From contig NZ_JANQTS010000039.1 in assembly GCF_030731595.1 (NCBI RefSeq), forward strand, positions 1 to 64,000: DNA of 64,000 nt, read 5' to 3'. Origin of the DNA: Yoonia sp. (GTDB taxonomy: Bacteria; Pseudomonadota; Alphaproteobacteria; Rhodobacterales; Rhodobacteraceae). This document shows, one piece after another, positions 53,399 to 55,929 of this stretch; the stretch's first letter is position 1, and every line of letters starts with the position of its first letter. The notes below the pieces were generated by a model that saw only the letters and a list, made by a program, of their open reading frames with translations, was not told the DNA's origin and made no database searches. A program made the position numbers and the translations under genes.

Positions 53399-53617
53399 AT
53401 GCATCGCATTTCGTCTTGGTGCTCTCGTTTCGACCAGGATGCTGGCATTGTCGTGCGATGCAATGTGCGTGTGACACGGCGCTCAGACGGTTTTCTGGCA
53501 GGGTTCTGGGGGCTTGAATATGATGCCCCTCCTTTCGATCGACAAGCAGTCCCGCAAGTGATGCTTGATCTGATCCCAAAGCCGGATCAATTCCTAACCC
53601 ACTTTGCCTCGGACTAA
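53399..53617 (+). CDS. Possible small protein in the accA-mcl1 gap
   Basis: A 72-residue ORF (MHRISSWCSRFDQDAGIVVR, ending LIPKPDQFLTHFASD) fills part of the 429-base gap between divergent-facing accA and the 3' end of mcl1. It has an ordinary composition, a weak GGTGG ribosome site, and overlaps the mcl1 stop by four bases. No family is recognised. The remaining 53186-53398 segment holds the accA upstream region and nothing else I can support. Treat as tentative. Confidence 0.35.
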   Translation: MHRISSWCSRFDQDAGIVVRCNVRVTRRSDGFLAGFWGLEYDAPPFDRQAVPQVMLDLIPKPDQFLTHFASD

Positions 53618-54570
53618 CCGGCAATCATCTCGGACTGGCGCACAATCACCTCGGCTTGCTTGATCGACGCGATATCGACCAAGCGGCCCTTGTAGACCGT
53701 CGCCCCTTCTCCCCGCGCCTTGGCCTCTTCCATAGCGGCAAGGATTTCGCGGGCTTCGGCGACGGCTTCTGCTGAAGGAGTGAACACTTCATTGGCTAGG
53801 GCAATCTGCTTGGGGTGGATCGCCCATTTGCCGACCATGCCCAATGTCGCAGAACGACGTGCTTGGGCGCGATACCCCTCATCATCGCTGAAATCCCCGA
53901 AAGGCCCATCGACGGGCAGCACGCCGTGGGTCCGGCAGGCTGCGACAATCGCCGTTTGTGCCCAGTGCCAAGGGTCGGAATAGTGCCGCGTGTCGCCATG
54001 CAGCATATAGTAGTTTTCCTGCGTACCGCCGATCCCTGTCGTTTGCATCCCCATCGAAGCTGCAAAATCAGCCGCGCCCAAGCTCATTGCCGCCAGACGC
54101 GGTGAGCTTGCTGCGATCTCTTCGACATGGGCAATCCCTGCCGCAGATTCGATGATGACCTCAAAGCTGATCGGTTTGCTCCGGCCCTTGGCGCGCTCGA
54201 TCGCGGTCACCAGCGCATCAACGGCATAGACGTCGGCCGCACAGCCCACTTTGGGGATCATGATCTGGTCAAGGCGGTCGCCCGCTTGTTCCAGCACATC
54301 AACGACATCCTTGTACCAATAGGGCGTATCAAGGCTATTGATCCGCACGCTCAGGTACTTTGTGTTCCAATCCACTTCATTGATGGCTTGAATGATGTTT
54401 CTGCGCGCAGTGTCCTTGTCAGAGGGTGACACACTGTCTTCGAGATCGAGGTTGATGACATCCGCCGCACTCGCAGCCATCTTTTCAAACAATTTGGTGT
54501 TTGATCCCGGGCCAAAGAGTTGACAGCGGTTGGGACGGGCAGGTGGTGTCGGTTGCAGGCGAAATGACAT
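53614..54570 (-). CDS. mcl1: L-malyl-CoA/beta-methylmalyl-CoA lyase (Mcl1)
   Basis: A 318-residue HpcH/HpaI-citrate lyase beta family enzyme. The full-length resemblance to the Rhodobacter sphaeroides Mcl1 is very strong by recollection: MSFRLQPTPPARPNRCQLFG, ADVINLDLEDSV, SFEVIIESAAGIAHVEEIAA, MGMQTTGIGGTQENYYM and GMVGKWAIHPKQ. It cleaves malyl-CoA and beta-methylmalyl-CoA in the ethylmalonyl-CoA pathway for acetate assimilation. AAGGAT precedes the ATG. The upstream region contains inverted repeats and TTGCA-type motifs that may be operators. Confidence 0.95.
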   Translation of the reverse strand: MSFRLQPTPPARPNRCQLFGPGSNTKLFEKMAASAADVINLDLEDSVSPSDKDTARRNIIQAINEVDWNTKYLSVRINSLDTPYWYKDVVDVLEQAGDRLDQIMIPKVGCAADVYAVDALVTAIERAKGRSKPISFEVIIESAAGIAHVEEIAASSPRLAAMSLGAADFAASMGMQTTGIGGTQENYYMLHGDTRHYSDPWHWAQTAIVAACRTHGVLPVDGPFGDFSDDEGYRAQARRSATLGMVGKWAIHPKQIALANEVFTPSAEAVAEAREILAAMEEAKARGEGATVYKGRLVDIASIKQAEVIVRQSEMIAG

Positions 54571-54649
54571 CGGAGATCCTTGGCGTAGTAAAATTGCGTT
54601 CTATTTGCGCTGTTCGTTATATTATTGCGCGAAGAGCCACAAGTTCAAT

Positions 54650-54684
54650 TTGCACTTGCAGCAATTGGAAACGCTGCAGTGCAA
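54650..54684. promoter_or_regulatory. TTGCA-type inverted repeat upstream of mcl1
   Basis: TTGCACTTGCAGC (54650-54662) and GCTGCAGTGCAA (54673-54684) form an inverted repeat with one bulged base. Such TTGCA/CTGC elements resemble operators of carbon-storage and short-chain acyl-CoA regulators of alphaproteobacteria (PhaR or the ScfR/RamB group). Repeat is seen; regulator is inference. Confidence 0.4.
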
Positions 54685-54706
54685 AATTTTTCGCGAAAAA
54701 TTTTGC
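54681..54706. repeat. Perfect 26-base palindrome centred on TTCGCGAA
   Basis: Arm GCAAAATTTTTCG is followed immediately by its exact reverse complement CGAAAAATTTTGC. It lies between the tyrB stop and mcl1 start, 31 bases centre-to-centre from a second palindrome with the same TTCGCGAA core. It could be an operator or a cruciform-prone repeat. Confidence 0.7.
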
Positions 54707-54712
54707 TCCCAT

Positions 54713-54736
54713 GAAGGAAATTCGCGAATTTCCTTC
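54713..54736. repeat. Perfect 24-base palindrome centred on TTCGCGAA
   Basis: Arm GAAGGAAATTCG is followed immediately by its reverse complement CGAATTTCCTTC. It begins nine bases after the tyrB stop on the minus strand and has no U-tract, so a simple terminator is less likely than a binding site or repeated element. Confidence 0.7.
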
Positions 54737-54744
54737 GCTCCTGC

Positions 54745-55929
54745 TTAAACGCCGGCGCTGACGATAGCCTTGGCAAGGATAGGGACGGTCTCTGCATTCA
54801 GGCCAGCAATATTCATCCGGCTATCACCCACCATATAGATCCCGTAATCGGCGCGCAGCTTTTCCACCTTGTCGGGGGTTGTCCCCAAAAGGCTGAACAT
54901 ACCGCGGTGATGGGCCAGAAAATCAAAGCGGTCACTATTGGTCAGGCGTTTCAACTCATCCGCCAACTGCTGCCGCAGCACCAACATCCCGTTGCGGGTT
55001 TCTTCCAACTCGGCTTCCCAATCCGCGCGCAATGCAGGGTCTTGCAGGATCGTCGTCACAACCCGTGCCCCGTGGTCCGGCGGAAAGGAGTAGTTCTGGC
55101 GGTTCAGGAAAGCGAGGTTCTGCTGCGTCACAGCCTGCTGGTCTGCATCTTTGGCGACGGCCATCAGGATACCTGTCCGCTCACGGTAAATGCCGAAATT
55201 TTTGGAACAGCTTGCTGCTATCAGGCAGTTTTCAAAACTGCTGGCGATCTGGCGCGTGGCCTTGGCATCCTCAGCCAGTCCATCACCAAACCCTTGGTAG
55301 GCGATATCAACAAACGGAATCGCCATTTTCTTCTGCATCAAGCTGATGACCTGAGCCATCTGTTCATAAGTCAGGTTTGCGCCGGTCGGGTTATGACAGC
55401 ACCCATGCAGCAAGACCACATCGCCAGCGCCGACACCTTCGAGGTCGGCCATCATACCCGCGAAATTCACGCCGCGCGTGGCGCTATCAAAATAGCGGTA
55501 CTCGGCCATCTTCATCCCAAGGTACTTGACGATCGAGGGGTGGTTCGGCCAAGTGGGGTTCGATAGCCAGACCGTTGCTCGGGGGGCTGCAAGCTTGATC
55601 AGTTCAAGCGCCTGCCGGATCGCACCTGTCCCGCCGGGCGTCGCCACAGCAGCGACCCGTTCGTTCAGCACGCTATCGCCCAATACAAGGTCTTTCATCA
55701 CGGCACTGAACGCCGGATCACCTGCCAGTCCCGTGTAGGCCTTGGTTGTTTGATCCGCTACGATCCGCCGTTCTGCTTCTTTGACCGCGCGCATGACGGG
55801 GGTGTTGCCTGTTGCGTCCTTGTAGACGCCGACACCCAGATCCACCTTGTTGCTGCGCGGGTCCGCTTTGAAGCTGGCGATCAGCGCAAGGATTTTGTCG
55901 GCAGGTTGGGCAGAAAGGTTTTCCAGCAT
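54745..55929 (-). CDS. tyrB: Aromatic/aspartate aminotransferase, class I
   Basis: A 394-residue PLP aminotransferase of the AspC/TyrB type. VDLGVGVYKDATGNTPVM at the start, WLSNPTWPNHPSIVKY, HGCCHNPTGANLT and the Schiff-base lysine segment AASCSKNFGIYRERTG are present, as is GDSRMNIAGLN near the end. It exchanges amino groups between aspartate or aromatic amino acids and 2-oxoglutarate. Its ATG follows immediately after the stop of the sulfurtransferase gene. Confidence 0.92.
   Translation of the reverse strand: MLENLSAQPADKILALIASFKADPRSNKVDLGVGVYKDATGNTPVMRAVKEAERRIVADQTTKAYTGLAGDPAFSAVMKDLVLGDSVLNERVAAVATPGGTGAIRQALELIKLAAPRATVWLSNPTWPNHPSIVKYLGMKMAEYRYFDSATRGVNFAGMMADLEGVGAGDVVLLHGCCHNPTGANLTYEQMAQVISLMQKKMAIPFVDIAYQGFGDGLAEDAKATRQIASSFENCLIAASCSKNFGIYRERTGILMAVAKDADQQAVTQQNLAFLNRQNYSFPPDHGARVVTTILQDPALRADWEAELEETRNGMLVLRQQLADELKRLTNSDRFDFLAHHRGMFSLLGTTPDKVEKLRADYGIYMVGDSRMNIAGLNAETVPILAKAIVSAGV

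Follow-up and report, generated by a model that had tools for sequence, protein, structure and literature searches.

The locus between a tyrB-like and an mcl1-like gene raises the question of what two adjacent, perfect palindromes are doing there, and whether they serve the gene that follows or the one that precedes them. Palindrome A (GCAAAATTTTTCGCGAAAAATTTTGC, 26 nt, 54681–54706) and palindrome B (GAAGGAAATTCGCGAATTTCCTTC, 24 nt, 54713–54736) are separated by the spacer TCCCAT (54707–54712), and the plus strand reads tgcagtGCAAAATTTTTCGCGAAAAATTTTGCtcccatGAAGGAAATTCGCGAATTTCCTTCgctcctgcTTAaacg across the element. Both share the core TTCGCGAA (54690–54697 in A and 54721–54728 in B) and their centres lie 31 bp apart, a geometry that had been described exactly in the original prediction. 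No other gap-free palindrome in the window, i.e. the whole 64-kb stretch of DNA that was analysed, is as long; the next in length spans 16 nt. When the window was simulated 20 times with a first-order Markov model, the longest palindrome of each run had arms of 7–12 bp (14–24 nt in total). Two palindromes of 26 and 24 nt with a common core are therefore not explained by chance. The core itself is not enriched, either in the window (4 occurrences vs 1.9 expected) or genome-wide (63 vs 111 for the reversed control word), and these counts rule out TTCGCGAA as an enriched genome word.

Both flanking genes lie on the minus strand. The tyrB-like gene (54745–55929) encodes an aromatic amino acid transaminase (NF006719, 524.9 bits) and ends with the stop codon TAA at 54745–54747. 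The mcl1-like gene (53614–54570) encodes a lyase of the CitE superfamily, matched by CitE and malyl-CoA lyase models below their curated cut-offs; its naming as malyl-CoA/beta-methylmalyl-CoA lyase goes back to the original prediction and is not settled by these models. On the transcribed strand, the tyrB stop codon is followed by an 8-nt gap (54737–54744), palindrome B, 6 nt, palindrome A, approximately 110 nt and the mcl1 start. The two dyads upstream of mcl1, which have a core in common and a spacing of 31 bp, had been taken as possible cooperative operators controlling this gene. Comparison with 80 orthologous Rhodobacteraceae loci speaks strongly against that idea, as almost none of these orthologues has the palindromes upstream and TTCGCGAA occurs within 260 nt upstream of mcl1 in only 3 of the 80. 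The sole orthologue with a comparably long palindrome upstream of mcl1 is that of Yoonia tamlensis, which carries a single GAATGAATTTCGCGAAATTCATTC with different arms directly behind tyrB. What is usual in the proximal 100 nt of mcl1 is instead a conserved block, GCTGC..CTGCAAAAT..CTTGC..GCGCAATTTAATACC, represented here on the minus strand by GCTGC..TGCAAATTGAACTTG..GCGCAATAATATAAC (54600–54680), between the palindromes and mcl1, and present also in orthologues that lack palindromes. At the locus whose Mcl1 is 96% identical (L004), this promoter block aligns and the palindromic stretch corresponds to a gap. Missing from most mcl1 orthologues and replaced by a gap in L004, the element is therefore a unit acquired or lost behind tyrB, outside the mcl1 promoter, and the conserved block is a better candidate for an mcl1 operator. 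At several Yoonia loci among the upstream regions compared (L003–L082), the block extends to form a G+C-rich inverted repeat. The other copies described below point the same way: they sit behind unrelated genes (nuoJ, ybaB and many others) and show no evident link to the ethylmalonyl-CoA pathway, their units are spaced 27–32 nt apart, and the length of the dyad centre varies by 1–2 nt. The suggestion that copies of the form N6-TTCGCGAA-N6 might gather upstream of ethylmalonyl-CoA pathway genes was likewise not borne out, as the copies cluster behind stop codons instead. Operators for mcl1 were rejected on the basis of the orthologue comparison, and we regard them as exceedingly improbable.

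When the core of A was searched for in the own genome, a second copy of the complete arrangement emerged between nuoJ and nuoK; its near-identical A has one mismatch in the core, and a separate B (CGAAGAAATTTCGCGAAATTTCTTCG) comes after it. A degenerate pattern derived from B, which did not force complementarity at its variable positions, matched 12 of 100 relatives, all of the same genus and mostly as perfect palindromes, with zero matches in these 100 relatives for the reversed control pattern; across the family, sampled as a rule with one genome per genus, 3 of 397 genomes matched. Alignment of 19 B-type units (alignment A2, with 18 invariant columns) yielded the covariance model R1, to which unit B with its foot (54706–54741, plus strand) scored 45.8 bits in the own genome (E 1.3e-10). 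R1 recovered about seven sites in that genome (nuoJ–nuoK on C13, tyrB–mcl1 on C39, C64 at 51.0 and 75.9 kb, C135, C85 and C9), the majority of which carry two hairpins. The model matched 38 of the 57 genomes of the genus and 17 of 199 genera of the family, and in 190 genomes drawn from the class as a false-positive control it matched the own genome and none of the 189 others. One of the 17 family genera (G146) gave 35 matches and G022 gave 42, with both strands counted; near-symmetric units were often matched on both strands, so that sites are fewer than matches. In G022 (L199–L211), a mostly solitary sub-type, GATCAAATTT-NNNN-AAATTTGATC, is common.

The results demonstrate that the pair at 54681–54736 is one copy of a dispersed, REP-like family of twin palindromes in the Rhodobacteraceae, in line with the earlier suggestion of a genome-wide repeat with a structural role. 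The unit, 24–36 nt long, consists of an AT-rich stem of approximately 10 bp (GAAnnAAWTT), a centre of 3–5 nt and often a short G+C foot. Its 3' flank is an invariant GC (54737–54738 after the stem of unit B), and the spacer TCCCAT corresponds to a variable spacer that in other copies often ends in CA before unit B. Where both units of a pair scored well, they were arranged minus-then-plus, 27–32 nt apart, which makes the full element an inverted dimer rather than a tandem duplication. A duplicated unit of about 31 bases preceded by GGAGC, as originally proposed, was accordingly discarded: the GGAGC tag is not conserved in other copies, its offset differs by 2 nt between A and B, and the paired units are inverted. 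At any given locus the element is missing from many species, and no single copy is therefore essential.

The position of the copies relative to genes was assessed for approximately 70 copies, with flanking genes called approximately by a simple ORF caller and the shared ybaB–recR locus counted once. Most copies lie in gaps between genes, and the few assigned to the inside of a gene include spurious or extended reading frames. A stop codon was found within 15 nt of 52 of 65 copies (median distance 5 nt), compared to about 9% expected for random placement, a null that was drawn from the 30 gaps of this one window; copies within one genome are not independent, and the bias is best described as very strong, without taking the p-values literally. 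The elements are thus placed at gene ends and between the genes of operons, a few nucleotides past a stop codon. Among 63 copies with clear orientation of the flanking genes, 37 lay between co-directional, 24 between convergent and 2 between divergent genes. Such a distribution would in part suit transcription terminators, perhaps two-way ones between convergent genes or ones assisted by Rho, given the location directly behind stop codons, the 24 convergent sites and a palindromic structure that can be read from both strands. The stems are AT-rich, however, and a U-tract is absent, as had been noted before; the sole terminator-like match is at chance level and lies inside palindrome B. An intrinsic terminator, with its G+C-rich stem and U-tract, was rejected on these grounds. 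Copies are also found inside the co-directional pairs nuoJ–nuoK, where nuoK starts approximately 86 nt past the nuoJ stop codon with the element in between, and ybaB–recR. Judging from the sequence, the common orientation and closeness of the genes in both pairs imply that the element would be transcribed through, and termination in any form appears unlikely as the role of the family.

Structure rather than sequence is what the copies have in common. Alignment A2, in which the search pattern did not dictate the variable stem pairs, gave a stem covariation score of 0.284, compared to 0.106 in shuffled alignments; none of 500 shuffles reached the observed score, which collapsed once the stem partner was slid. 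The same was seen at a single locus, the gap between ybaB and recR, where two hairpins follow ybaB in approximately 20 genomes of the genus, and other genomes have one, none or a different repeat. In hairpin A of this locus 99.2% of the stem cells pair, and 10 cells have changed on both sides (0 of 500 shuffles). The centres differ widely (CGCG, CTAG, AGCT, GTAC, GTCC, CTCG, CGTG, CGAG, CCAG, GGCT and AACT, with 3- and 5-nt versions as well). Since the copies retain neither half-sites nor spacing, only the ability to fold, they fit a folded hairpin better than a dyad operator. A site acting at the DNA level, through cruciform extrusion or the binding of gyrase or a nucleoid protein, as with BIMEs, would agree with the AT-rich arms, the inverted pairing and the observation that 63 of 88 sampled cores remain perfectly palindromic across the centre. 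Copies nevertheless differ in the sequence of their arms and in the length of their centre, and the strong bias is towards 3' ends rather than intergenic DNA in general, which leaves this a very unlikely explanation. The carriers at ybaB–recR are scattered across the recR tree, with a minimum of six changes of state, so the element is probably old at this position. Its persistence there as twin hairpins with compensated arms, across the genus, suggests selection in place. Gene conversion between copies is another way in which such arms can come about.

Taken together, we favour, with moderate confidence, a REP-like family that has neither a GTAG or CGTC tag nor a detectable RAYT and that acts as hairpins at the 3' ends of mRNAs, the molecular role being what we infer. 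REP hairpins slow 3' exonucleases. In the present case, the tyrB message would fold into two hairpins, the first of them 8 nt past the stop codon, which could shield the message from 3'-to-5' exonucleases, slow the terminating ribosome, or both. The level of the upstream gene would then be set relative to what follows, as by REP hairpins in E. coli, and the mcl1 promoter would be left unregulated. E. coli REPs located no more than 15 nt from the stop codon are reported to stall ribosomes (cited in PMC12306157), and the spacing of a few nucleotides observed here matches that class. Two predictions count against a role in the RNA: both hairpins have low stability (-7.5 and -9.5 kcal/mol), and the minimum-energy structure of the tyrB 3' end does not include hairpin A.

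Under a broad definition, REPs are extragenic, palindromic, short (about 14–40 nt), similar, multi-copy and transcribed (PMC12306157). The present elements are extragenic palindromes capable of forming a stem-loop, share a consensus motif and occur in multiple copies, with transcription implied by operon positions only. They resemble the REPs and BIMEs of enterobacteria in being short extragenic multi-copy palindromes with a common motif, often located behind stop codons and in inverted pairs, but differ in their AT-rich perfect stems, in being far fewer (about seven sites), in lacking a GTAG head and in the absence of a detected RAYT. The CGTC-tagged REPs of alphaproteobacteria are predominantly head-to-head dimers with loops of 4–5 nt and stems of 8–9 bp (PMC3733652). 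The present elements too are alphaproteobacterial palindromic repeats forming inverted dimers, with loops of comparable size; the stems described here are, in contrast, approximately 10 bp long, and no CGTC, TGTC or CCTC tag at the stem foot is a feature of the family. In alignment A2, neither GTAG nor CGTC, TGTC or CCTC was found at the stem end, where the 5' flank is variable, often ending in CA, and the 3' flank is GC. Scanning the window and eight further loci against Rfam gave no family match to the element. A match to the Rfam serC leader (RF00517, 69.6 bits; L112, 278–329) shares its locus with a twin-hairpin copy in front of a gene that begins with MAPKVLISDKLSPAAV and looks serA-like by eye. 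A search of the open literature, outside subscription papers, for palindromic repeats of Rhodobacteraceae or Roseobacter and for the string TTTCGCGAAA returned no description of the family. It is apparently an undescribed REP-like family and not a new regulatory system, and a striking pair of palindromes is explained as part of a family-level repeat in a group of major marine bacteria.

The dimeric architecture, in which a pair of inverted palindromes spaced by about 30 nt forms one dispersed element, is shared with REPINs (PMC3116915, PMC2817692). RAYTs are described as obligately associated with REPs, which carry a GT(A/G)G head (PMC3116915, PMC2817692); the present family, unlike such RAYT–REP systems, has no GT(A/G)G head and no RAYT in its own genome. 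The Y1_Tnp domain (PF01797) gave no match there and a single weak one among 10 other element-bearing genomes. REPs driven by a RAYT were rejected, as no such enzyme was detected in the own genome or in almost any of the element-rich genomes tested. A purely selfish, non-autonomous repeat of REPIN or MITE type, moved via a single-stranded hairpin intermediate and tolerated behind stop codons as harmless there, is a possibility to which we give real but clearly lesser weight. It would account for the patchy distribution, with zero to dozens of matches per genome, for the inverted dimers and for the sharing of cores within a genome discussed below, which is expected after the recent spread of one source copy. 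The lack of Y1_Tnp in the own genome and in 9 of the 10 others speaks against it, as does the genus-wide persistence of twin hairpins with compensated arms at ybaB–recR.

The central bases tend to be shared within genomes. Among 88 sampled units, from a sample biased towards CGCG-rich cores like those on which R1 was trained, the centre was shared within a genome more often than between genomes (0.41 vs 0.22 expected, reached in none of 2000 shuffles). All seven sampled units had CTAG in one genome (G052) and all seven CGCG in another (G030). Such sharing would be explained by recent spread from a single source, by gene conversion or by a co-evolving factor. Self-complementary centres made up 63 of the 88 (about 70%); an RNA loop does not require them, which leaves room for a constraint at the DNA level or for a mutational origin by template switching. 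Kissing-loop pairing between A and B was considered and dismissed, the loops often being non-complementary (e.g. CGTG with CTCG, or CTAG with CGCG). A more speculative and rather doubtful extension of the favoured reading is a class of tag-less, RAYT-less REPs in which the centre (CGCG, CTAG, AGCT, GTAC or CCAG) would be exchanged throughout a genome's copies, one lineage at a time, with a host factor or mobilising enzyme co-evolving with the core and the hairpins setting 3'-end expression of housekeeping genes. If cores really turn over genome by genome, this would point to an enzyme responsible for spreading or converting the copies. Pseudooctadecabacter (L010, 1725–1748) has a similar-looking palindrome, CAACAAAATTCCGGAATTTTGTTG, whose centre is CCGG.

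The ybaB–recR gap, occupied in about 50 species by a pair, a single hairpin, none or another repeat, offers a natural series on the effect of a hairpin behind a stop codon. In species without the twin hairpins (L254, L256, L257, L260 and L261), the slot is filled by a second repeat, AAATATCCCCGCCGGAGGC (in reverse GCCTCCGGCGGGGATATTT), which was seen also in L197 and L198 and which elsewhere, with related forms in L202 and L216, directly abuts palindromes. Two further genomes (G050 and G025; L259 and L264) carry different tandem hairpins in the same slot, in L264 CGATTTTTCTAGAAAAATCG followed by CGCATTTTTGCGAAAATGCG, and these are possibly a diverged form of the twin element.
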